The notes under the pieces were generated by a model that made no database searches, had not been told where the DNA came from, and saw nothing but the letters and a program-made list of their open reading frames with translations. Source: Candidatus Thiodiazotropha sp. (ex Codakia rugifera) (GTDB lineage Bacteria; Pseudomonadota; Gammaproteobacteria; Chromatiales; Chromatiaceae). From it: 64,000 nucleotides of DNA. Positions 41,638 to 62,896 of the stretch are shown here, in pieces (the first letter of the stretch is position 1; the number at the start of each line of letters is the position of its first letter). The translations under genes and the position numbers were made by a program. The stretch covers positions 682,001 to 746,000 of the forward strand of contig JAHXHN010000003.1 in assembly GCA_025656675.1 (NCBI GenBank), written 5' to 3'.

Positions 41638-43251
41638 TTATTTAGCTTCAGCCAGATCGCTTTCAACAAGCTGCCACAAATCCGTCTCACCACTACCCAG
41701 GTCATACCTAACAATGCGATGGTTGTTGGTATCTGCAATCAGAAGTTTATCACCAAGCAAGGTCAATCCGCCTGGTTCGTTCAATTGAAACTGCCCATCT
41801 CCTATACTGCTCACCCCAGGCTTTCCATCACCAACAACCGTCTCAATAACACCCTTCTTCAAATTAATCGATTTCACTTTGTGATTATAGGTATCTGCAA
41901 TGAGTAATTCGTTACTGTTATAGGTTGTAATGCCAAGCACATGTTGTAGTTTTGCCTTGGCCAGCGTTCCATCCCGGTCGCCAAAATCAAATAATCCGGT
42001 TCCGATCAGGGTCTCAACTCTTTTCTCTTTAAGGTGAATTCGACGCACAGCAGAATCTTCTGAGTCAGCTACATAGAGCCAGGCTCCATCCAAGCTTAAA
42101 CCGCTGGGTTGACTGAATGTAGCAGTTCTGACAGCTCCATCGTCAATACCCTCACGTCCCGAACCTGCAAAAGGTCCAATTTTCCGTGTGCTTAGGTTAT
42201 ATCGCCAGATCTGGTGGCTTCCCGCCATTGCGATGTAGAGCTGATCCTCATCCAATGCAAGGGCCCAGGGAGAGGCAAGTCCTACTGAAAGTGGGTCGAA
42301 TTTGCCTCTACGTTTACGTTCCAGAGAGCCATCACCTGCTACTGTCTGCACATCGCACGACTCGAGATCAATATATCGAATCAGGTGATTTCCAGTATCA
42401 GCGACGTAGATCCCGTGATCATCGAACACAATCCCTTGCGGCATGTTAAACCGAGCTGTGGCACAGCTACCATCTTGTGTACCAAGTTCTTTGTCACCAA
42501 TAATCCTTTCAATGACACCCTGATGATCTGCCACGATGATACGGTTATGCAGCGTATCGCTGATAGCCACATACTCCCTGGAGGCGGCTATCTTTCCTGG
42601 TGCGGCCAATAGGGATGATGCAATACGATCTCGTTCTAGTTTTTGGGGGATTGGAGTCGGATCTAAAATTGCATGATGCTCTTCTAAAAGCTCACTGATC
42701 GTTTGATCAAAAAGATCATACTTACCTTCCCCAGTTACACGTCCAAGAACGTCTCCTGCCGGGTCAATAATCACCCGTGTTGGCCAGGCACGCATGCCAT
42801 AAGAGCGGGCAAGTGTGGAATTGACATCATTTACCACCGGATGTTCGATACCGTACCGCACAATAATATTGCGCAGGGTCTCCAAATTTTTCTCATTATC
42901 GAATTTTGGCGTATGCACACCTATCACTAATAATTGATCACCATGCTTCTTTTCCAGTTTTTTCAGGTCGGCGAGTACATGGACACAGTTGATACAACCA
43001 TAAGTCCAGAAATCCAGGACCACCACTTTTCCAAACAGGTCATCGAACGTTAATGGCTTCTCAACATTCAGCCAGGGTAAACCTGGTGCGAACTCAATGT
43101 CTGACAACGAAGATTTTTTCTGTCTCTCTGTCTGTTTTGAGTCCAACTGAGGCGATTCTGCAGAGCAGCTGGCAAGAAAAAATATCAGGAAAAACGCAAG
43201 TAACCCTGCTTTGATCGAATCATAGGTATAAGGAAGCGTATTACAGAGCAT
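41638..43251 (-). CDS. Thioredoxin-like plus NHL-repeat lipoprotein (NHLRC2-like)
   Basis: A 537-residue exported protein. A hydrophobic segment ends in FLASCSA (about 25-30), a lipoprotein signal. The TlpA/thioredoxin-like domain (about 48-190) has the redox site TYGCINCVHV (CxxC) and WPTRVIIDP with cis-proline. A C-terminal beta-propeller of NHL repeats (about 215-520) is visible as repeated PQGIVFD, PWALALD, PSGLSLDG, GITTYN and PGGLTLLG with Asp-rich loops (ADTGNHLIR, ADTYNHKVK, ADTNNHRIV). This matches the thioredoxin-NHL family NHLRC2. Its role in bacteria is unknown; the CxxC suggests redox function in the envelope. It is downstream of the ferredoxin and cytochrome cluster on the same strand. 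Confidence 0.85.
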   Translation of the reverse strand: MLCNTLPYTYDSIKAGLLAFFLIFFLASCSAESPQLDSKQTERQKKSSLSDIEFAPGLPWLNVEKPLTFDDLFGKVVVLDFWTYGCINCVHVLADLKKLEKKHGDQLLVIGVHTPKFDNEKNLETLRNIIVRYGIEHPVVNDVNSTLARSYGMRAWPTRVIIDPAGDVLGRVTGEGKYDLFDQTISELLEEHHAILDPTPIPQKLERDRIASSLLAAPGKIAASREYVAISDTLHNRIIVADHQGVIERIIGDKELGTQDGSCATARFNMPQGIVFDDHGIYVADTGNHLIRYIDLESCDVQTVAGDGSLERKRRGKFDPLSVGLASPWALALDEDQLYIAMAGSHQIWRYNLSTRKIGPFAGSGREGIDDGAVRTATFSQPSGLSLDGAWLYVADSEDSAVRRIHLKEKRVETLIGTGLFDFGDRDGTLAKAKLQHVLGITTYNSNELLIADTYNHKVKSINLKKGVIETVVGDGKPGVSSIGDGQFQLNEPGGLTLLGDKLLIADTNNHRIVRYDLGSGETDLWQLVESDLAEAK

Positions 43252-43491: not shown

Positions 43492-43518
43492 ATGCGGTAC
43501 CAGTTTGTCGCTAATTGA
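43492..43518 (+). other. Eight-codon open frame with a strong ribosome-binding site
   Basis: AAAGGAG five bases upstream of ATG, then MRYQFVAN and a TGA that overlaps the 3' end of the minus-strand ferredoxin gene. The signal is better than that of many real genes here, but the frame is tiny. It could be the beginning of a deleted gene or a leader peptide; no downstream plus-strand gene exists to control. Confidence 0.3.
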
Positions 43519-44590
43519 ATACTTGATATAGTTTTTCATGGTGATTACGTTGCGAACAGATCTGACACAGATTTCCTATATGTCCTGATTGCACTGAAGG
43601 CAGGTGGAATTGAACGCCGCAACTGTGGCAGTTGTTTTTTTCCAGCATGACCACCTGCTGCTCAACCTCTTTCCATTTGTGAAGCGTAACAGCTTGTTGA
43701 TCACAGATATCGGCACATACACCACAACCTGTGCATAGTTCCGGATACAATTGGTAAATCGCCTTATCTTCGGATTCAACCAGTTGGATTGCCTGGTGAG
43801 GACAAGCTCGTGTACAGGCATCGCAACCATTGCAAACACGACTATCGATGATTGGAAGATTGGGCCAAGCCTGGGAATCTGTTGATTTTGGCAGCAGTTG
43901 GCCTGGAGGTACAAAAGCGTTCTTACCATCGGCAGGGGGTTCAAGAAGTTCCAGCCCATGTTGTAAACTACTGTTAAGAATGCCCCTTAAAAATCCTCTG
44001 CGACTGAGCTGCGGTCCAGCGGCATATTCGCTGATTGACAGTGTTATCTTTTGCCATTCGAGTAGTGATCGACGACTGAATCTTATTCTTCTGTTTCCAC
44101 GCTTCTTGAGGATGCGATTCAAAAGGTTGAGCCTGTCAAATAAATGGGGTCCCTGACCGCGTTCACAAACACTACAATTCCCTGCAGTAACAACCCAATT
44201 CATAATACCCTGTTGATACAAGCCCAATATTTCCTGTAATCCTATAGCATGCAGGCAATGTATAACCCCATCTTTTACTGAACTGTGTGCATATTCACAG
44301 GCACATAGCGCTAAACTCGAACCCTGCCAGTGGCCAATCATCATCTGCTGCTGAATGGTGATCGCACCTTCCGGACACACAGGTGCACATAAACCACAGC
44401 CATCACAGGCTGCTGTATCAAGATGAAGTGCTTCATCATCAAGTGCCCACGCTCCTTGCGGACAAACCTCAACACATGACTGGCAGTTTGCCACTTCGAT
44501 AATCGAGTGAACGCATCGATTGCTGATAATGCTTGGCAGTTTTTCCTCCTGCCGAGCATGCTCAACCAATTCGTGTAATTTAGGCATCAT
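43511..44590 (-). CDS. Multi-cluster 4Fe-4S ferredoxin-type protein
   Basis: A 359-aa electron-transfer protein with two ferredoxin pairs. N-terminal motifs: CQSCVEVCPQGA and CDGCGLCAPVCPEGA. After a middle region (about 90-230) with a CSVCERG motif and an SRRGFLRG segment, C-terminal motifs: CNGCDACTRACPHQA and CTGCGVCADICDQQA, then CHSCG and CQICSQ at the end. The internal SRRGFLRG looks like a twin-arginine motif but lies mid-protein, so it is not a signal here. Likely delivers electrons to or from the cytochrome/molybdoenzyme cluster encoded just upstream on the same strand. The partner is unknown. Confidence 0.85.
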   Translation of the reverse strand: MMPKLHELVEHARQEEKLPSIISNRCVHSIIEVANCQSCVEVCPQGAWALDDEALHLDTAACDGCGLCAPVCPEGAITIQQQMMIGHWQGSSLALCACEYAHSSVKDGVIHCLHAIGLQEILGLYQQGIMNWVVTAGNCSVCERGQGPHLFDRLNLLNRILKKRGNRRIRFSRRSLLEWQKITLSISEYAAGPQLSRRGFLRGILNSSLQHGLELLEPPADGKNAFVPPGQLLPKSTDSQAWPNLPIIDSRVCNGCDACTRACPHQAIQLVESEDKAIYQLYPELCTGCGVCADICDQQAVTLHKWKEVEQQVVMLEKNNCHSCGVQFHLPSVQSGHIGNLCQICSQRNHHEKLYQVFN

Positions 44591-44782: not shown

Positions 44783-45166
44783 TTATTTTTTCATTGTACG
44801 TATATAGGCTACAAGTGCCTCGATTTCACCATCAGGAATATCTGCACGTCCTGGCATGGTTGCAGCACCACCGTACTTCGCAGAACCATTCTTGATGATA
44901 TTCACCAGGTCTGCATCTGTCCCCGTTTGGCCATCACCATCTGTATCATACTTAAACACACCGTCTGTAAAACTGCGTGGTTTAGGATCCATAGCCATCG
45001 CAGCGGGACCATCACCCATACCGGCCGGGCCATGACAGCTACCACAAGCGCCTTTGCCGTCATATATCGCTTTTCCTGCAGCCGCATCCGCCACAGCGTT
45101 TGGTGAAAGGGAGACAAGCAGCAACCCTCCGCACAGGGCAGCTAATTTATCCGTTTTTCTATACAT
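44783..45166 (-). CDS. Monoheme cytochrome c, periplasmic
   Basis: A 127-residue class I cytochrome c. Signal peptide MYRKTDKLAALCGGLLLVSLSPNAVA, heme site GACGSCHGPAG (CGSCH), then KYGGAATMPGRADIPDGEIEALVAYIRTMKK with the Met ligand in ATMPG. A 23-codon longer frame exists but would bury the signal peptide. It lies 161 bp from torD and 192 bp before the ferredoxin gene on the same strand, in the molybdoenzyme cluster, and is the likely soluble electron carrier. Confidence 0.9.
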   Translation of the reverse strand: MYRKTDKLAALCGGLLLVSLSPNAVADAAAGKAIYDGKGACGSCHGPAGMGDGPAAMAMDPKPRSFTDGVFKYDTDGDGQTGTDADLVNIIKNGSAKYGGAATMPGRADIPDGEIEALVAYIRTMKK

Positions 45167-45327: not shown

Positions 45328-46101
45328 CTACACAGCCGGACCCATCCCAGGCATGAAACTGACGGGCACTTCTTCCATTTGCTTCCTTGGCTTCATTCTC
45401 TCTTCTATCTCTTCCTCACTGGGTCTTGGCTGGTCAAGAATGGTCACCATAAGGTCTCTCAACTCGTCGCAATAGGCGTCTGTTAAAAGCGCAATACCGG
45501 CAAAGTAAGGTGTTGCACAACGACTGGAAACGCGTTGCGCAAAGATGCCAAGCCAACGTAATAGATGTTCATCCATAAACCGGGCAGCCTCTTCAAGATC
45601 AGACTCACTTTCAGCAACAGCAAATAGATGAGAGAGAAACTGTAGCTGTAAAACCAGGTGGTCATCGGGCCTTACACGCCAGTTTTCAGCCATCAATCCA
45701 TATTGCTCATACCAGGCTCTCACCTGAAACATACTGTCTTGACACGCCAAGCTCTCTTCATCGATCCAAACAGACTCTTCAGGGGAAGACTGAATACTGT
45801 AATTCAGATAGATATCGGCATAGTCTGCAGCGAGCTCGTCAATGACTGTCTCATCAATACTCTCCGGGAGCGCCGCAAGTGAACGTCTCATCAGGTCTAA
45901 GGCCTGTAAGCCACTACTCCCAAGCAGCTTCAAGCCCAGGCCGTTAGGAAAATCACCCTCACGTAAGGCTTGTAACAGGATTCCATCAGGCTCCTTATCA
46001 TGCAGAAGCACCAACATTTCCATATCGTCCGCAACGGCCTGGTAAAATGCCTTGAGTACTTTAATGGGTCCCTTTCCCTGATTTTTTGCCTGTTTTCCCA
46101 T
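45328..46101 (-). CDS. TorD/DmsD-family molybdoenzyme maturation chaperone
   Basis: A 257-residue cytoplasmic chaperone of the TorD family, all-helical, recognised by ADYADIYLN (near 88-96), SVWIDEESLACQDSMFQVRAWYEQYGL and PDDHLVLQLQFLSHLF. Such proteins bind the Tat leader of the catalytic subunit and assist cofactor insertion. The ATG overlaps the ferredoxin subunit stop at 46101, so it is translationally coupled. A Met/Pro-rich C-terminal tail (KPRKQMEEVPVSFMPGMGPAV) is unusual for the family. Confidence 0.9.
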   Translation of the reverse strand: MGKQAKNQGKGPIKVLKAFYQAVADDMEMLVLLHDKEPDGILLQALREGDFPNGLGLKLLGSSGLQALDLMRRSLAALPESIDETVIDELAADYADIYLNYSIQSSPEESVWIDEESLACQDSMFQVRAWYEQYGLMAENWRVRPDDHLVLQLQFLSHLFAVAESESDLEEAARFMDEHLLRWLGIFAQRVSSRCATPYFAGIALLTDAYCDELRDLMVTILDQPRPSEEEIEERMKPRKQMEEVPVSFMPGMGPAV

Positions 46102-46766
46102 TACTTGACCTTCCCTTTACTGTGCGCCACAAATCCTATCGATGGCTTGGTCAATTCAATATCAGACATATTCTTCACTTGCCGCGATACCTGGTCATTA
46201 GGACCGACTGCTACGGTTTCCAGTTCTCCAGCCCAGATCTTATCAATTTGACCAATGTCCAAGACGCGCATCATGCAGGCCATGACACAGTATGGCTTAC
46301 GACCTGCCTCGATCTCATCGACACACATGTTGCACTTTTTGACAATGCTGTCACTGGGATCGAATTGAGGCGCACCAAAGGGACAAGCTGCTTCACAGCG
46401 CCGGCAACCGATGCAGAGTGTGGAATCGATATCGACGATTCCATCCTGTTTACGCTTAAAAATGGCGCCAGTCGGACAGGTCGGCAAGCAAGCAGGTGAT
46501 TCACAATGGTTACAGGACATGTTGACTTTATAAGCAAACACATCTGGGTATCTCCCCCCTTCAATGTATTGCACTCGTCTGAAGCGGGGCCCTGCTGCCA
46601 GGCCGTTTTTGTCCTTACAAGCGATCTCACAGGCACGACAACCTATGCAATCCACATTATTGTGAACGAATCCCAGCTGTAGATCTGGTTTGACCGGTGT
46701 ATAAGTCTCACGCTTACGACGCTTGACCGCTTCCTTGATCTTGGCTTTGTCTTTTGATTCTGACAT
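46101..46766 (-). CDS. DmsB/NrfC-like iron-sulfur subunit, four [4Fe-4S] clusters
   Basis: A 221-residue electron-transfer subunit with four cluster motifs: CIGCRACEIACKD, CNHCESPACLPTCPTGA, CIGCRRCEAACPFGAP and CNMCVDEIEAGRKPYCVMAC. These are the four clusters of DmsB/PsrB/NrfC-type proteins. It has no signal peptide and would be exported as a partner of the Tat substrate encoded upstream (18-bp gap). The start MSESKDKAK (46766) is preferred over a 5-codon extension. Its stop overlaps the torD start. Confidence 0.93.
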   Translation of the reverse strand: MSESKDKAKIKEAVKRRKRETYTPVKPDLQLGFVHNNVDCIGCRACEIACKDKNGLAAGPRFRRVQYIEGGRYPDVFAYKVNMSCNHCESPACLPTCPTGAIFKRKQDGIVDIDSTLCIGCRRCEAACPFGAPQFDPSDSIVKKCNMCVDEIEAGRKPYCVMACMMRVLDIGQIDKIWAGELETVAVGPNDQVSRQVKNMSDIELTKPSIGFVAHSKGKVK

Positions 46767-46783: not shown

Positions 46784-49348
46784 TTAAAGATCACGCCGGA
46801 ACACATGGGCGCGTGATGTCGCCAGCTTGTCCCAGCCCGGCCGATGTTCCAGATCCGTCTTCTTGATATTGCAAAGTACCGTATTGTATGCAAATGCCCC
46901 TGCTGGACTTGGTTCATCCAATGTCAGCATGTCCGGGTTACCTGCGCGGTCAACACCGTTCTCATCCAGTTCGATCCAGACCCCTTCATGCAACACGGCG
47001 ACACCGGGCATACAACGTTCAGTTACGTAGGCCGGTACAACGCACTTGCCACGATCATTCCAGACTTCCACCGTATCACCGGTCTTGATACCCAGCTTCT
47101 TGGCATCGGAGGCATTCATTGTCACCTCCTGCTCATAGGTCTCGCGCAGCCAGCTACAGTTATTGAAGATCGAATGCGTTCGCCAACGCGGATGGGGAGA
47201 AATCAGATGAAACGGATGTTTCTTGGTTTTAGGACTATTCAATGATTCCCAAGGCTCGATCCACTTGGGTATGTAGGGAATCTCATAACCATACATGGTC
47301 TTCTTCCAATCCGTGATCTGTGCCAACTGTGTCGCCAAAATCTCGATCTTGCCAGACGGAGTCTGAAAGCGTGCTCCATTCTCTATCTGATCCCGGAAAG
47401 CCACATGGGGCTGATCGAAAGTGAATTTATAGACACCCCGTTGTTTGAACTCATCCCAAGACATATCGACATGCTGATGGGGAATCACCTTGGTCTCCCA
47501 CCACTCGCGCAAATAGGCTTCGTCTACGTTTTCATTGACATGAAAGTAGTCCCTGTTGGCTTTCGGATTGTAGGCCTGTCCGAACACATCACCACCGATA
47601 CGATAGGCCAATTCTGTAAAGACCTGCATATCAGTCTTTGACTCACCCATGGGTTCGATCACCTTGGGTCGATGGATATAGTAGTGACCCTTATACCAGG
47701 GCAGTGCCACATCATGCCGCTCGAAGTGAGTGGCAATCGGTAGCAGGATATCGGCATACAGACCGGAGGGTGTGATGGTTGAATCCATACACACTACCAG
47801 CTCCAATTTATTAATCGCCTCTATCTCTTTATTGATATTGGTGAGTTGATTGAACCAATCGGAGCCCTGCCAGAAGATTCCCTTGATGTTGGGTATCTGG
47901 CCGTCTGTCTGGTCCTCACGCTGCCACAGCCCAATCTCTTCACGTTTGACATTGGGATAATTGAGCACACAGTGCGCCCAACGGTCCGACTTGATTGCCT
48001 GGAACCAGATGTTGGAGTATTGATCGTAGGGATAGGCGACTGCTTCTGCATGCCACGCCTTACCGACACCTTCAGCGCAGCCACCCAGAATACCGATATT
48101 ACCGGTCATCGCCTGAAGTGCTGCTGCCATACGATTGTACTGTTCACCATAAGCATTCCGTCCCGGTGCCCAGGACGCTTTAAGTGCGGCGGGCTTGGTC
48201 TTGGCATACATATCGGCGAGTTTGATAATGTCCTTGGCTGCCACACCACAGATTTTCGCTGCCCATTCAGGGGTCTTTGGCTCGCCGTCGTACTTGCCCA
48301 GGATATAGTCTTTGAAGTTCTCCTTGCCTTGCGCCCATTGCGGCATCGTGCCAGCATCCATACCCTGACAAAAACGATCAATGAATGATTGGTCATGCAG
48401 GTTATTGGTAAAGATATGGTGAGCCATACCGGCCATCATTGCAGCATCGGTGTTAGGACGGATAGGAATCCACCAGGCATCATAGGCTGATGCAGAATCG
48501 GTATATTGCGGATCAATAAGGACGAATTTGCAACCACGCTGTTTTGCCATCCGCATATACATGAAGGTGTTGCCACCATGAAATGTATAGGCTGGATTCC
48601 AACCCCACATAATAATCAGTTTTGAGTGTGCAAAGGCATCGTCTTCATTGCCATCTTCGATGGTGCCGAAGGTCATTCTTGAACTGAACGTGGTACCTTG
48701 ATAGGAAGGTACAGACCAGGAACTGGTACGACAACCAAACATACCCAGGAAGCGACCTAACAACCCCTCAATCTGATCCGACTTGTGTAAAACGCCGTAA
48801 GAGGCCCCAGCGTAGCTTTGATCCACCAAGGCGGTAGGTCCATATGTATCCTTGAGATAGACCATTTTCTTAGCCACGAAGTCCAAGGCTTCATCCCAGG
48901 AGATGCGTTTGAATTTACCCTCTCCCCGTTCTCCCACACGCATCATGGGGTAGAGTAACCGTTCAGCGGAGTAGAGCCGCTGACGATAGGAACGACCACG
49001 CAGGCAGGCTCTTAATTGCGGCTCCTCATTCGTGTCTTTACCGAAATGCCCACCCCGCTGATAACGACCATCATCAGTAGACAGGCGCACAATCACATCC
49101 TTCCACTTGTGTGCCACCAGCATGTGGCGTGAGCCACAATTGTGAGCGCAACTGGTTACCACTGTTTGCAATTCATCATCTTTAGGATATGGCTCATAAG
49201 CGAATGCCTTCGCCTCTTTTGCCGTCTTCAACTCAACCAAACCACCGGCAGCTACTACAGCACTTCCCGCTGCGGTTGTTTTCAAAAATGATCGCCGTGA
49301 CAGATTCAAGCGCTCATAAAGGTTGTCTTTCATTTTCTTGATGCTCAT
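46784..49348 (-). CDS. DmsA-family molybdopterin oxidoreductase catalytic subunit
   Basis: An 854-aa Tat-exported enzyme of the DMSO reductase family. Tat signal NLSRRSFLK (residues 15-23), then the Mo4Fe4S domain with C67, C71 and C115 but His75 where the third cysteine is in DmsA (CAHNCGSRHML). ACLRGRS and GEGKFKRISWDEALD follow, then a predicted serine molybdenum ligand S215 (VPSYQ) aligned with the DmsA serine. The molybdopterin domains continue to the C-terminal TGDTVEVWNDRGKCV block. Substrate unknown: DMSO/TMAO-like, or a sulfur, selenium or chlorate oxyanion. It is flanked by the pentaheme cytochrome and ferredoxin subunit genes. Confidence 0.92.
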   Translation of the reverse strand: MSIKKMKDNLYERLNLSRRSFLKTTAAGSAVVAAGGLVELKTAKEAKAFAYEPYPKDDELQTVVTSCAHNCGSRHMLVAHKWKDVIVRLSTDDGRYQRGGHFGKDTNEEPQLRACLRGRSYRQRLYSAERLLYPMMRVGERGEGKFKRISWDEALDFVAKKMVYLKDTYGPTALVDQSYAGASYGVLHKSDQIEGLLGRFLGMFGCRTSSWSVPSYQGTTFSSRMTFGTIEDGNEDDAFAHSKLIIMWGWNPAYTFHGGNTFMYMRMAKQRGCKFVLIDPQYTDSASAYDAWWIPIRPNTDAAMMAGMAHHIFTNNLHDQSFIDRFCQGMDAGTMPQWAQGKENFKDYILGKYDGEPKTPEWAAKICGVAAKDIIKLADMYAKTKPAALKASWAPGRNAYGEQYNRMAAALQAMTGNIGILGGCAEGVGKAWHAEAVAYPYDQYSNIWFQAIKSDRWAHCVLNYPNVKREEIGLWQREDQTDGQIPNIKGIFWQGSDWFNQLTNINKEIEAINKLELVVCMDSTITPSGLYADILLPIATHFERHDVALPWYKGHYYIHRPKVIEPMGESKTDMQVFTELAYRIGGDVFGQAYNPKANRDYFHVNENVDEAYLREWWETKVIPHQHVDMSWDEFKQRGVYKFTFDQPHVAFRDQIENGARFQTPSGKIEILATQLAQITDWKKTMYGYEIPYIPKWIEPWESLNSPKTKKHPFHLISPHPRWRTHSIFNNCSWLRETYEQEVTMNASDAKKLGIKTGDTVEVWNDRGKCVVPAYVTERCMPGVAVLHEGVWIELDENGVDRAGNPDMLTLDEPSPAGAFAYNTVLCNIKKTDLEHRPGWDKLATSRAHVFRRDL

Positions 49349-49372: not shown

Positions 49373-50170
49373 CTATTTAGCCGCCTGCTTGGTTTTTATG
49401 CGGAACCTTGGATTTGACTCTGTCGGTCGATTCTTGGCCCACTCAGGGATCTCACTCGCCATACCTTTCCATGCATGACGCGGATAAGGAAAGGGAATGC
49501 GATACCATTGACGCCCACCATGGCAGCCATAGCAGACATCTGAATCCTTCTTTGCCGCCTCTTCGATAGCATCCGCTTTTAGATAATTAACCTGGTGTCT
49601 AACGTTGCGGATATTGGAATGGCAAAGCAGGCAGTTGTCCTGAAACATGCTTCTGGATTCATGCCAGGGTTTGGGCAATCCCATAATCTTGTATGGATTG
49701 GCTCCATGACACATGAGACAGATCTCTGCAGGGTTTACAGACTTACGTAATGTGAAATCCTTGTTTGAATGGTCTGGTGGTAACATCGCCTCTTCACGCA
49801 GATCATTTCCCTGATGACAAGTGTTGCACTTCAAGTCCATCAGTTGCTTTGCCAGTGGTGTAACCAGATGGCGTCTATGCAAGGTATCCTGCGCACCTTC
49901 ATAGGTAGTCAAGGTTTGATACCAGGCTAACACGTCAGCGGATTTAACCCCTGCCGGTGACTGCTCCAACACCCTTTTATCCAAGACTTCTTGATGACAG
50001 CTAAGACACTGCTCGTCAGTCGCATCATCGATTGCCGGCTTAAAATGGATTGGATGCCATCTTGACCTTTCATAGTCACCGGACTTTTTTTCATCAGCCA
50101 ATAAGTGACTGCCTGATGTCAATAAAACTATTAGCAGGGATAATAATATGATTCGTAATTCCAACTTCAT
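49373..50170 (-). CDS. Pentaheme c-type cytochrome, periplasmic
   Basis: A 265-residue exported cytochrome with a signal peptide (about 1-25) and five CxxCH sites: CLSCH, CNTCH, CLMCH, CLLCH and CYGCH. Many further His residues (HRRHL, HHP-like, RHQVN) can serve as distal ligands, giving bis-His hemes. No transmembrane anchor is seen after the signal. It is 24 bp upstream of the molybdoenzyme gene and probably co-transcribed, so it replaces the usual membrane anchor as electron donor or acceptor. Not similar to NapB, NrfB or CymA at the level visible. Confidence 0.9.
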   Translation of the reverse strand: MKLELRIILLSLLIVLLTSGSHLLADEKKSGDYERSRWHPIHFKPAIDDATDEQCLSCHQEVLDKRVLEQSPAGVKSADVLAWYQTLTTYEGAQDTLHRRHLVTPLAKQLMDLKCNTCHQGNDLREEAMLPPDHSNKDFTLRKSVNPAEICLMCHGANPYKIMGLPKPWHESRSMFQDNCLLCHSNIRNVRHQVNYLKADAIEEAAKKDSDVCYGCHGGRQWYRIPFPYPRHAWKGMASEIPEWAKNRPTESNPRFRIKTKQAAK

Positions 50171-50251: not shown

Positions 50252-50293
50252 GTAACATCCATGTGGAATTAATCCATGATACAGACTGAGAGC

Positions 50294-51304
50294 TTAGCGC
50301 CAGCCACTCATACCGGACATACCGCCCATGCCGCCCATGCCGGACATACCACTCATGCCGCCCATGCCGGACATACCACTCATGCCGCCCATACCACTCA
50401 TACCGGACATGCCGCCCATGCCACTCATACCGGACATGCCGCCCATACCACTCATACCGGACATACCGCTAGCGGGATAGAAGAAGATCTGGCCCTGTGG
50501 CGTGATCTGGAAGTAACCGGACATGCCACTCATGCCGCCCATACCGGACATGCCACTCATGCCGCCCATACCGGACATGCCACTCATGCCGCCCATACCG
50601 GACATGCCACTCATGCCGCCCATGCCGCCCATGCCGCTCATGCCGCTCATACCGCCCATGCCGCCCATACCGGACATTCCGCCCATGCCACTCATGCCGG
50701 ACATACCGCTAGGCTGCCAAACCCATTGACCGCCCATGCCGGACATACCGCTCATGCCGCCCATGCCGCCCATGCCGGACATACCGCTCATGCCGCCCAT
50801 GCCGGACATACCGCTCATGCCGCCCATACCGGACATGCCACCCATGCCGCCCATGCCGGACATACCGCTCATGCCGCCCATGCCGCCCATGCCGGACATA
50901 CCGCTCATGCCGCCCATACCGGACATACCGCTCATGCCGCCCATACCGGACATGCCACTCATACCGGACATTCCACTAGCGGGATAGAAGAAGATCTGAC
51001 CTTGTGGCGTGATCTTGAAGTAACCGGACATACCGCTCATACCGGACATACCGCTCATACCGCCCATGCCGGACATGCCACTCATGCCGCCCATGCCGGA
51101 CATACCACTCATGCCGCCCATGCCGGACATACCGCTCATGCCGCCCATGCCACTCATACCGGACATACCGCCCATTCCACCCATGCCGGACATACCGGAC
51201 ATGCCATACATACCTGCTGAAGCCAAAGGCGCAACTGCGAGAGCAGTGGCAAAACCCAAGGCTTTTATTACCCCTTTCAAACTAGGCATTCGAATTTTTT
51301 TCAT
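50294..51304 (-). CDS. Secreted Gly-Met-Ser repeat protein, unknown function
   Basis: Not a recognised family. The 336-aa product has a signal peptide (MKKIRMPSLKGVIKALGFATALAVAPLASA) and a mature part made of GMSGMSGMG-type repeats (roughly nine-residue units, some shortened or extended), interrupted twice by a YFxITPQGQIFFYPAS segment and once by QWVWQPS. No cysteine. Composition is almost only Gly, Met and Ser outside these inserts, so it is probably an unstructured or fibrous extracellular or periplasmic protein, or one that binds metal through Met thioethers. Adjacent, same-strand genes encode a related-looking 94-aa secreted protein upstream and the pentaheme cytochrome downstream. A sulfur-globule-envelope role is one speculation. 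Confidence 0.75.
   Translation of the reverse strand: MKKIRMPSLKGVIKALGFATALAVAPLASAGMYGMSGMSGMGGMGGMSGMSGMGGMSGMSGMGGMSGMSGMGGMSGMSGMGGMSGMSGMSGMSGYFKITPQGQIFFYPASGMSGMSGMSGMGGMSGMSGMGGMSGMSGMGGMGGMSGMSGMGGMGGMSGMGGMSGMSGMGGMSGMSGMGGMGGMSGMSGMGGQWVWQPSGMSGMSGMGGMSGMGGMGGMSGMSGMGGMGGMSGMSGMGGMSGMSGMGGMSGMSGMGGMSGMSGYFQITPQGQIFFYPASGMSGMSGMGGMSGMSGMGGMSGMSGMGGMSGMSGMGGMSGMSGMGGMGGMSGMSGWR
50297..51213. repeat. Tandem degenerate minisatellite encoding Gly-Met-Ser units
   Basis: The repeat gene is built of 9-bp steps (Gly-Met-Ser or Gly-Met-Gly codons) and 27-bp composites. Because steps are multiples of three, all frames on both strands stay open, producing long antisense frames. Two copies of the insert (50471-50516 and 50978-51023) differ at only a few bases, which suggests recent internal duplication. 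A third insert, coding QWVWQPS, lies at 50709-50732. Confidence 0.8.
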
Positions 51305-51408: not shown

Positions 51409-51693
51409 TCAGGGATGCCATCCTCGAAGATCGTAAGGACCTGTCATACCGGGACGATTAAAAGGTGTGTACCAATTACCCTGGTTATCGAGAAAATAGA
51501 GGCTGCGTGGATAAGGTTGCTGAATACCCGTCAGCGCATGTTGATACCAAGCCTTATCGTTATTAACCCATTCTATGATCGGGGCGCCGCTTGGTCTTAA
51601 GGAGGGTTGAATGCCAGCAATGGGATAATCCGCTATCACTGAGGTTGCCATCAGCCACAACGCGCCACCGCAGACAAGTAGAGAAGTCCGCAT
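51409..51693 (-). CDS. Small secreted protein, unknown function
   Basis: A 94-residue exported protein: signal peptide to about residue 21 (ATSVIA), then a Trp/Tyr/Pro-rich mature part (DYPIAGIQPSLRPSGAPIIEW, YFLDNQGNWYTPFNRPGMTGPYDLRGWHP). No cysteine except in the signal peptide and no known domain. GGAGGG precedes the ATG. It is 104 bp upstream of the Gly-Met-Ser repeat gene on the same strand, so the pair is probably an operon. Its C-terminal GMTG segment and YFLDNQGNWYTP resemble the insert of the repeat protein (YFxITPQGQIFFYP), which supports a shared function. Confidence 0.7.
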   Translation of the reverse strand: MRTSLLVCGGALWLMATSVIADYPIAGIQPSLRPSGAPIIEWVNNDKAWYQHALTGIQQPYPRSLYFLDNQGNWYTPFNRPGMTGPYDLRGWHP

Positions 51694-52165: not shown

Positions 52166-52951
52166 TTATTCCAACAACATCACTTTTCCATCTGATGCAC
52201 GAACTGCCAATTGATGTACAAGCCTGTAGGGTGCTACCTCTTCAACCAGGCTAACGAGATAGATGCGTAAGACCTTACGTACTCGTCCCACTTGTAAACC
52301 CTGAAACCCTGAAAGCTGTAAATAGTCTCTTGCCAATTTCGTTATCTCTGACCATTCATCAATGGGCAGTGAAACATTCTCAAGTTGCAGCTGATAGCCT
52401 TCACATTGTCCCAAAACAGCTGAATCGCTATTTGAAGCCCCAGTAACAGGTGATATTTCCACGGGATGGAAACGCACTGAACCATCATCATCCCGTTCAA
52501 TTCGCCAGTAATCAAAACCAGGCAGATCCGGGATCACATCAACTTGAGTGTTGGCAGGACTCGGCTCCTTTACAGTTTCAAGTGGTTTGTTACCCGCTTG
52601 TGGTCTCAAAATAAGGCTACCATCCTCGGACCATTCCGCCTGCCAGCCACTCTGTTCCAAGGCACTGCCCAGTTGATTTCTCTGTTCATCAGTTGAGGAT
52701 ACGTCCTGATTGCCAGCTTCTGCCCGAATAGTGGGCAAATGATAGATAACACTTCCATCTGCAGCCTGATACTCTTGCCATCCTTGTGCTTGTAACGAAT
52801 TGCGCAAGCTGTCAGAGAGCTGCGTGTTTTCATCAGCTAAAGTCACCCCTGTAAAGAAAAACAATAATAGTCCATATGCCAATAGGACTGAGTTGTATCC
52901 GATCTTATTTTCTCTATTCACGTTTAGAGTCTCCTCCACAAAATAATGCAT
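52166..52951 (-). CDS. Exported protein with three GW...DGS...P repeats, unknown function
   Basis: A 261-aa protein with a hydrophobic signal (about 22-40, VLLAYGLLLFFFTGVTLA). Three degenerate units follow: QGWQEYQAADGSVIYHLP, SGWQAEWSEDGSLILRP and DYWRIERDDDGSVRFHP, each an aromatic start, an Asp-Gly-Ser turn and a Pro end. The C-terminal part (about 165-261) is a separate domain with CEGYQLQLENVSLPIDEW and KVLRIYLVSLVEEVAPYRLVHQLAV. The start MHYFVEETL (52951) is chosen; a 9-codon extension is less likely. No known family. It is upstream of the repeat-protein genes but separated by a strong terminator. Confidence 0.65.
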   Translation of the reverse strand: MHYFVEETLNVNRENKIGYNSVLLAYGLLLFFFTGVTLADENTQLSDSLRNSLQAQGWQEYQAADGSVIYHLPTIRAEAGNQDVSSTDEQRNQLGSALEQSGWQAEWSEDGSLILRPQAGNKPLETVKEPSPANTQVDVIPDLPGFDYWRIERDDDGSVRFHPVEISPVTGASNSDSAVLGQCEGYQLQLENVSLPIDEWSEITKLARDYLQLSGFQGLQVGRVRKVLRIYLVSLVEEVAPYRLVHQLAVRASDGKVMLLE

Positions 52952-53405
52952 GGTTAGCAATCCAAGACCAACCTGCAAAACTTAAGCCAAGCCTTATTTC
53001 TAGGGGAATAAATTGAAATGCGGGATCAAACAACCGGTAAAAACATGACAAATTGTCAACCGATGTTGTTTGGAACTGAGTAATAATTGCCTATTAATAA
53101 ATCAGTAAATGAATGAGCACTGATATAGTGTTGGAAGCGATTTTTTTTCGGAAGGTAAAATTTGTAAATAAGCTGTAATAAGATCGTAATATATTACATT
53201 TTCATTACTGGTTCATTAACCAAATAGAATCTCAATTATAATTTTTTATAGAGAGAATGTGACACAATATTCTTAATCTAAGTTTGCACTCATACGCATT
53301 TGTACATTCGATCATCCAATCAACATGAAATAAAAAATCCATTGAAATCTAACCACCTGAATAGCGCAAGTATTTGAAGGCGCTTGGGTAGTGCAATCTA
53401 TAAAC
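52952..53405. other. 454-bp intergenic region, no gene seen
   Basis: AT-rich space upstream of the exported-repeat gene and downstream of the PilZ gene. AGCGC and GCGCT (53360-53382) could pair in a weak stem, with no T run. No operator or open frame of interest was found; it probably carries the promoter of the gene at 52951. Confidence 0.55.
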
Positions 53406-62219: not shown

Positions 62220-62896
62220 TCCAAACTAACACCAGTTGGCGTCTACTGGCAGTAACCATCTCTATGCTGTTGCATCTGCTGATCGTGATGGAATGGTCTG
62301 ACAAACTGATTACCCGATCAGCGATTGAGGAACAAAAGCGATCTCCCCTGTTTGTGCAGTTGAATTTTCCTCAACCACTCCCTGAAGTGATCCCGGAAGT
62401 CATTCAACCGGTAAAACCGGTAATCAAACCTGTGGCTCGTCCAAAACCCAAACCCAAACCCAAACCCAAACCCAAAACAAAGCCCAAACCTAAAAAGAAA
62501 AAAGTAAAACCTGTTCTTGAACCTGTTATGGAGAAAGTGGTTGAAACCGAACCGGTTAAGGAAGTGTTAACAAAGAAAGAGGCACCACGACCTCGTGCAC
62601 AGCCCCAGGTAAATCTGCGTGAACTTTTCCTGGCAAAACTGCTGGCAAGCATTGAAGAGAAAAAATACTATCCGAGCATAGCCCGTCGCAGAAATCTGGA
62701 GGGAAATATAAAAGTCAGTTTCAAGCTGGAGTGTGACGGAAAAGTGGTACAGCTTGCCATCACCGGACAACACAATCTGCTGCGAAAAGCAGCAGGTAAA
62801 GCAGTTGACGCAGCACAGCCGTTACCTGAAATACCACCACAAATAAAATGTCCCATGCAAATCAGCTATGCCATGGCTTATAAGTTAGATAAATGA
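62216..62896 (+). CDS. tonB: TonB energy-transducing protein
   Basis: A 226-residue protein: N-terminal membrane anchor (LLAVTISMLLHLLIVMEW, residues 10-27, with the conserved Ser/His face), a Pro-Lys-rich spacer (about 60-125, long KPKPKP tract) and the C-terminal TonB domain (about 135-226) with SIEEKKYYPSIARRRNLEGNIKVSFKLECDGKV and the final strand. It has the normal architecture and is dedicated to this operon. The KP tract is encoded by a 6-bp-step repeat (aaaccc), prone to length variation. Confidence 0.94.
   Translation: MIQTNTSWRLLAVTISMLLHLLIVMEWSDKLITRSAIEEQKRSPLFVQLNFPQPLPEVIPEVIQPVKPVIKPVARPKPKPKPKPKPKTKPKPKKKKVKPVLEPVMEKVVETEPVKEVLTKKEAPRPRAQPQVNLRELFLAKLLASIEEKKYYPSIARRRNLEGNIKVSFKLECDGKVVQLAITGQHNLLRKAAGKAVDAAQPLPEIPPQIKCPMQISYAMAYKLDK

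Follow-up and report, generated by a model that had tools for sequence, protein, structure and literature searches.

What use might a bacterium have for an exported-looking protein built almost wholly of Gly-Met-x triplets? The question is raised by a reading frame in the 4.65-Mb genome of Candidatus Thiodiazotropha sp. (ex Codakia rugifera), lying on the reverse strand of the 64,000-nucleotide stretch of DNA that was analysed here (the window; contig C3, positions 682001-746000). A preliminary description, made from the letters of the window, offered three roles for the product, namely a coat for sulfur or other deposits, methionine-based binding of copper or silver, and an extracellular fibre. 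These were proposed without regard to the operon, and in this respect they are incomplete: the usual neighbour of the gene is an enzyme of the DMSO reductase family, which points to methionine redox chemistry.

The gene and its product

The frame (50294..51304, reverse strand) encodes 336 amino acids plus a stop. It opens with a Sec-type leader, MKKIRMPSLKGVIKALGFATALAVAPLASA (51215..51304), and continues into a tract of GMS and GMG repeats (50309..51214) with periods of 9, 18 and 27 bp; no other tandem repeat in the window is as strong. The tract is interrupted by three inserts, YFKITPQGQIFFYPAS (50975..51022), which is conserved in relatives, QWVWQPS (50708..50728) and YFQITPQGQIFFYPAS (50468..50515). 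Strand, length, leader and inserts are thus as first described. The leader was called by inspection, and on this reading the protein, which we call the GM protein, is predicted to be exported. Its 306 residues from GMYG on include 87 Met, 5 Pro, one Lys and one Arg, and neither His, Cys, Asp nor Glu. Successive methionines are exactly three residues apart in 83 of 86 gaps. The emphasis of the preliminary description on methionine was well placed. With one Lys and one Arg in the mature form, the protein would mostly be missed by trypsin-based proteomics.

An open frame is in itself little proof of a gene here, because the repeat is also open on the other strand (a 314-residue frame at 50276-51220, forward strand). 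The case for coding comes from the matches in relatives, from the recurrence of leader and inserts, and from synonymous variation between the repeat copies, in which Ser is written TCC 29 times, AGT 17, AGC 13 and TCA once, and Gly is written GGC 79 times, GGT 43, GGA three times and GGG once. Judged by these features of the sequence, the frame is a real gene. A non-coding minisatellite, the alternative considered, is ruled out by the leader, the inserts and the mixture of synonymous codons.

Among 40 related genomes, the window genome included, 27 have a match to the GM protein at E <= 0.001. They comprise 21 of the 22 genomes of the genus as well as G023, G032, G033, G025, G031 and G036. The preliminary description had asked whether frame and leader might be absent from close relatives; instead they recur there, inserts included, as befits a real protein that looks exported. 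In 13 aligned homologues the leader, the YF inserts and a C-terminal WR are all kept. Two short forms stand outside this alignment, one without the QWVW insert (L104) and one without it and one of the YF inserts (L098). In several genomes the repeat is cut off by a contig end, and one apparent break of the frame is seen in G003. The expected expansion and contraction of the repeat is seen between species, the 19 homologues with a clean frame ranging from 170 to 356 amino acids.

No curated family fits well, as had been anticipated. The Pfam Collagen model (PF01391) scores 29.5 bits, just over its cut-off of 27.2, and we read this match as a consequence of Gly at every third position. A collagen-like adhesin was rejected: the SclB and Lcl models fall far under their cut-offs, and Pro is scarce for Gly-X-Y of the collagen type (5 of 306 residues). 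Models of defence systems gave no match for the three proteins scanned. Elsewhere in the window there is a short AAACCC hexamer array of 8.5 copies (62444-62494).

The operon

All neighbours described here lie on the reverse strand like the GM gene, and their frequencies refer to the best 80 of 283 loci related through the cytochrome; upstream genes were counted in the 40 loci with at least 3 kb of upstream DNA, downstream genes in the 61 loci whose DNA, counted from the cytochrome start, extends for 9.5 kb or more. Upstream lies a gene for a 94-residue exported-looking partner (51409..51693; 34 of 40 loci), and upstream of this one for a 270-residue exported-looking protein (52166..52978; 22 of 40). 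The latter has repeats of the form W/Y...DGS[VL]...P. Downstream of the GM gene follow a five-haem cytochrome c with five CxxCH motifs (49373..50170), a DmsA-like molybdopterin enzyme with a Tat signal (46784..49348), a DmsB-like 4Fe-4S subunit (46101..46766; 60 of 61) and a TorD/DmsD-like chaperone (45328..46101; 59 of 61). Beyond these are a monohaem cytochrome c that is present in part of the genus (44783..45166), a polyferredoxin-like 4Fe-4S protein (43511..44590; 39 of 61) and a thioredoxin-like protein with NHL repeats (41638..43251), which comes next in the operon of the genus and is found in 14 of 61 loci overall. The gene order is common to those loci of the genus whose contigs extend far enough, some of them without the small cytochrome. 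A regulator of oxidant responses was not noticed next to the window operon.

The 94-residue, DmsB-like and TorD-like genes form a core that is kept together with the enzyme. The 94-residue protein is widely conserved and has matches in 23 of the 40 related genomes, and the pattern of its family in an alignment of 35 sequences is RP..AP...W..AL.G...P....QG.WYTPF.RPGM.GPYDIRGWH; searches of Pfam and PDB gave no credible match to it.

Pairing of the GM gene with the enzyme

To see how widely the arrangement is shared, named genomes were scanned with an alignment of the cytochrome, which yielded 283 relatives, the best 80 of which were kept. The nearest named loci, with cytochromes of 94-95% identity, belong to Candidatus Thiodiazotropha MAGs, one of them from Ustalcina ferruginea. 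Among these best 80 of 283, a DmsA-like gene is present in 79 loci. A Gly/Met-rich frame on the same strand lies at most 3.6 kb upstream in 69 of the 79 loci that have at least 150 bp of upstream DNA (L097 has none and is outside this count), and in 35 of the 40 with at least 3 kb. The remaining 1,030,348 bases of the 80 loci, searched on both strands by the same criteria, hold two Met-rich frames only: a further GM frame in L137 and, in L134, a Met-rich tail on a homologue of the 94-residue protein. This last gene (L134:14844-15326, forward strand) looks as if sink and partner had been fused, the Met-rich part forming its C-terminus. Paired hosts include Ca. Thiodiazotropha, Sedimenticola, tubeworm symbionts, Thiomargarita, Venteria, Dechloromonas, Azonexus and Accumulibacter, and also an alphaproteobacterium (L160), where the GM frame is 2.5 kb away.

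The loci without a GM frame are of several kinds. In L109 and L133 less than 220 bp of upstream DNA is available, and in L118 and L129 the contig begins in what appears to be the same repeat read in another frame. We take the GM frame to be absent from six loci with at least 675 bp upstream, which belong to a Solemya symbiont (L111), Thioploca (L115, with only 675 bp), Parabeggiatoa (L139), Sedimenticola endophacoides (L147) and two Rhodocyclaceae/Azonexaceae (L150 and L154). All of these except L139 have the DmsA-like gene. The GM protein can evidently be dispensed with, because the 94-residue gene stays in L147, L150 and L154.

The same association is seen in the 40 related genomes. All 24 that carry a DmsA-like gene have a GM match, while among the 16 without it three have a weak one: G025, G031 and G036, with best matches at E 1e-6, 7.7e-6 and 4.7e-13 and 38, 54 and 34% identity, respectively. 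No DmsA-like gene was found in these three at E <= 1e-100, and the stretches fetched from them hold no frame that passes the GM filter. For comparison, the match in G032 has E 4.6e-11 at 75% identity, G036 having the better E-value. One congener with a 2.6-Mb genome (G014) lacks the enzyme, the GM gene and the 94-residue gene alike.

The pair has also been duplicated jointly. Four members of the genus carry a second DmsA copy (76-77% identical), and in the three cases where flanks are available (3/3) the second cytochrome is preceded, at a distance of 1.3-1.4 kb, by a diverged GM paralogue with the motif GTYRVTPQGxQLYP; the fourth copy (L205) begins at a contig end. In all three flanked copies, a gene for a Crp-type regulator is located between GM paralogue and cytochrome. 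This regulator (L060:7409-8215, reverse strand, and the equivalent place in L203 and L204), which was assigned by Pfam in L060 and by eye from the same sequence in the other two, may tell when the module is used. Beside the second DmsA, a cytochrome c (L060:2005-2844, reverse strand, in G002) ends in SGQFRVTPSGDIVLKP and SGNFRITPTGILFMP; these motifs resemble the GM inserts in kind and may represent a shared docking module.

Furthermore, the pair travels jointly on a plasmid. In Rhodobacter xanthinilyticus, a conjugative plasmid of 264 kb has the 94-residue, GM, cytochrome, DmsA-like, 4Fe-4S and TorD genes in this order; next to them come genes for a further 4Fe-4S protein, a histidine kinase and a sigma-54 regulator. 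Its GM gene is annotated as hypothetical; we counted 66 Met in 219 residues. Among plasmid records with homologues of the window enzyme, this GM-linked one stands at 79.8% identity, and the 31 others all fall short of 60%. In a sample of the class, the enzyme was found at E <= 1e-200 in 16 of 369 genomes; this is not an independent count, because the sample overlaps the 80 loci. Of 13 enzyme copies fetched from outside the genus, ten have a GM frame upstream, two lack both it and the cytochrome (L197 and L200) and one lies at a contig end. The pairing of the GM gene with the DmsA-like operon is firm.

Variation of the repeat

The 69 GM frames were selected by a threshold on Met and Gly, such that their high Met content (median 27.6%, range 16.5-36.4%) is partly a matter of choice; this does not apply to the varied residues between the methionines. 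After GM, Ser is found 1807 times, Gly 1101 and Asn 270 times, followed by Tyr, Arg, Glu, Gln and others; Ser content runs from 0 to 22%, and Cys and His occur in 4 and 7 of the 69 frames.

GM paralogues without DmsA nearby exist in L042 (own genome), L059 and L061. The neighbours of the L042 paralogue include none found to be shared with L059 or L060, and in L061 a small number of them are seen again some 6-8 kb away from its paralogue. In five members of the genus (L043-L047) there is a third exported-looking type, rich in Gly, Pro and Met, collagen-like and ending in a motif of the GTYRISPSGEILLFP type. Together with the paralogues that have no DmsA neighbour, this type indicates that the repeat can also have uses away from the enzyme. 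The paralogue of the own genome (contig C2) has, at a distance of about 2.2 kb, a gene for an exported-looking protein of 100 residues (L042:6005-6307, reverse strand), in which Met, Lys and Glu are abundant and which resembles MrpX, discussed below, in composition.

The DmsA-like enzyme

The best NCBIfam model for the enzyme is TIGR02166 (DmsA/YnfE), with 618.9 bits under a cut-off of 777.7; this exceeds its scores for the BisC, TorA and thiosulfate reductase models, the last with 225.7 bits. The DmsB-like subunit likewise stays under the curated TIGR02951 cut-off. The enzyme belongs to the Molybdopterin family PF00384 and not to the MsrP family PF00174. Its identity is 35-37% with E. coli DmsA, YnfE and YnfF, and 73-85% with the six other GM-linked homologues in the alignment. 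Ser215 is invariant across ten aligned enzymes, the three E. coli proteins among them, and we take this column to be the molybdenum ligand; the aligned Ser stands in an SxPSY context in 78 of 78 full-length homologues. The multiple alignment is the basis for this assignment, since two pairwise alignments with proteins of solved structure place the region differently. The closest solved structures include 1eu1 and 1dms (DorA), whose SYGW motif reads SYAG in the window enzyme.

MsrP (PF00174) was absent from the five genomes of the genus that were searched (5/5) and present in G023, which is of another genus. The own genome also encodes an exported-looking MsrA and a lipoprotein-like MsrAB fusion, which means that other envelope sulfoxide reductases are at hand.

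A rechargeable methionine sink?

We give about an even chance to the reading that the GM protein serves the envelope as a methionine sink which is recharged by a dedicated sulfoxide reductase. The GM protein would be exported to the envelope, where arriving oxidants would convert its methionines to methionine sulfoxide, thereby sparing other proteins. Electrons would reach the DmsA-like enzyme, matured by the TorD-like chaperone, via the five-haem cytochrome c and the DmsB-like iron-sulfur subunit. The enzyme would then reduce the sulfoxides of the GM protein back, and the sink would thus be recharged.

That the sulfoxides of the GM protein are the substrate, and likewise the direction and purpose of the cycle, we infer from the chemistry of the family, as known for DorA and E. 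coli DmsA, and from the precedent of mrpX. As far as the available text of PMC7402097 goes, a DorA-type DMSO reductase acts on sulfoxide inside proteins in vitro, and E. coli DmsA reduces free Met-R-O. Against this reading, in the accessible part of PMC8076862, DmsA is not shown to act on protein-internal sulfoxide, and the corresponding part of PMC8340005 credits the S-oxide reductase activity of H. influenzae mostly to MtsZ and not to DmsABC. The precedent is mrpX, which together with yedYZ is described, in the sections of PMC4623255 at hand, as a system of periplasmic methionine cycling against hypochlorite.

With respect to expression, excerpts of PMC12172469 deal with two other Ca. Thiodiazotropha species, in which dmsB and dmsD rank within the 100 most transcribed orthogroups during the upwelling season. 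Sulfur-oxidation genes were raised in that season, and oxygen was similar at both sampling times. Neither the Crp-type regulators nor the rise of dmsB and dmsD with the sulfur-oxidation genes points to oxidants. The GM protein could also be a redox store, with methionines oxidised when oxidants are plentiful and the resulting pool of sulfoxide respired by the DmsA-like enzyme under anoxia as a self-made terminal electron acceptor. Such a methionine battery, recharged where oxic and anoxic zones meet, is a rather slim prospect.

Other explanations

The enzyme might instead serve in anaerobic respiration of the ordinary kind, in which DMSO or some other small S- or N-oxide is reduced, with the GM protein as an accessory (for scaffolding, electron transfer or stability) and not as its substrate. 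The DmsA/YnfE models score best, a Crp-type regulator adjoins the second copies, and possible DMSO respiration is the reading printed for the enzyme of a lucinid symbiont in the part of PMC6872982 available. However, the DmsA and DmsB cut-offs are both missed, and no DmsC-like anchor was matched among the nine neighbours scanned. This explanation also leaves the Met-rich companion in 69 of 79 loci (best 80 of 283) unaccounted for, and no gene of the GM type is annotated in the dms and ynf operons of E. coli. We consider it unlikely.

As to the coating of periplasmic elemental sulfur or another deposit, with the enzyme working on sulfur compounds, the suggestion suits those hosts that store sulfur: many of the paired ones are sulfur oxidisers (Thiodiazotropha, Sedimenticola, Thiomargarita, tubeworm symbionts), and sulfur storage is known among them. 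The protein is of low complexity, Gly-rich and exported-looking, and dmsB and dmsD were high in a season of high sulfur-oxidation genes, in one symbiosis (PMC12172469, in part). The suggestion does not easily extend to Dechloromonas, Azonexus, Accumulibacter and the Rhodobacter plasmid, where the pair is also found. Moreover, the portion of PMC11171427 consulted has the L. kazani symbionts highly expressing three types of Sgp, and the thiosulfate reductase model reaches 225.7 bits versus 618.9 for DmsA/YnfE, such that a sulfur coat appears rather improbable. A structural fibre or collagen-like matrix that holds enzyme or cells would make sense of Gly at every third place, the (GXY) runs comprising a median of 86% of residues in the 69 frames, of the Collagen score above cut-off, and of the conserved aromatic inserts, which could act as contacts. 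Yet the median Pro content over these frames is only 1.8%, such runs hold less than half of the residues in 6 of the 69, and in many triplets Gly is in third place, which is poor for a triple helix; a fibre is hence quite doubtful. Two further explanations have still less in their favour. In one, the enzyme makes or handles an oxidant, e.g., by oxyanion reduction, and the GM protein shields against the by-product without being the substrate. Perchlorate and chlorate reductases have an Asp-type molybdenum ligand, from which the aligned Ser separates the enzyme, and chlorite dismutase was not among the nine neighbours scanned; this makes a shield very improbable, even though (per)chlorate reductases are members of the DMSO reductase family (PMC9751292, as far as accessible), as are putative selenate reductases, and perchlorate-reduction islands carry mrpX and yedYZ (PMC4623255, likewise). 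The other, a Cu(I)- or Ag(I)-binding protein relying on methionine only, matches the MxxM spacing throughout (83 of 86 gaps of three), and Met clusters do bind Cu(I). Against it, the nine neighbours scanned include no copper protein, the mature GM protein is devoid of His, Cys, Asp and Glu, and the usual partner is a molybdoenzyme, which renders it the most improbable of the readings considered.

Significance

In the literature searched, with subscription papers largely outside it, we found no description of a GM protein paired with a DMSO-reductase-like enzyme. By analogy, the module of GM protein and DmsA-like enzyme is suggested to work like MrpX/YedYZ, with a different enzyme family. Among the genes most highly expressed in a lucinid symbiont there is, going by the available part of the published account, a DMSO-reductase-like one whose role was left unexplained. 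It is probably the GM-linked one: in the genome matched to Ca. T. endoloripes (G016/L102), the sole close DmsA homologue is GM-linked, and we take it to be the published gene. If the GM protein proves to be the true substrate, the wrong one has been assigned to an entire clade of these enzymes, found in sulfur oxidisers and in Betaproteobacteria, and the reduction of protein-bound methionine sulfoxide by the DMSO reductase family gains a natural partner.

Comparison with known systems

Sulfur globule proteins (Sgp) are exported Gly-rich proteins of sulfur oxidisers; to our knowledge they are not Met-rich, and by description they are set apart from the GM protein. On the side of the enzyme, Rhodobacter DorA is related through the solved structures 1eu1 and 1dms, which are among the closest. 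It differs in being monomeric, in its operon and in its SYGW motif, and lies on a separate branch. E. coli DmsABC and YnfEFGH share with the window operon a catalytic subunit of 35-37% identity, the aligned Ser, a DmsB-like subunit and a chaperone of the TorD/DmsD type. The window operon departs from them in its five-haem cytochrome, in having no DmsC-like match among the nine proteins scanned, in scores under the TIGR02166 and TIGR02951 cut-offs, and in the GM gene beside the enzyme.

A close parallel in gene context is mrpX/yedYZ of perchlorate-reducing bacteria. There the enzyme is MsrP (PF00174), whereas here it is of the DMSO reductase family with DmsB-like and multihaem partners, and SigF/NrsF were not noticed among the frames listed around the GM gene. 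The window protein, unlike MrpX, is a long (Gly-Met-x)n repeat, and the two are likened by proposed role and gene context. As mrpX, for a Met-rich periplasmic peptide, is encoded with a methionine sulfoxide reductase, so the gene for the exported-looking GM protein lies beside a DmsA-like molybdoenzyme in 69 of 79 loci (best 80 of 283); this enzyme may act on methionine sulfoxide, by the reasoning given above.
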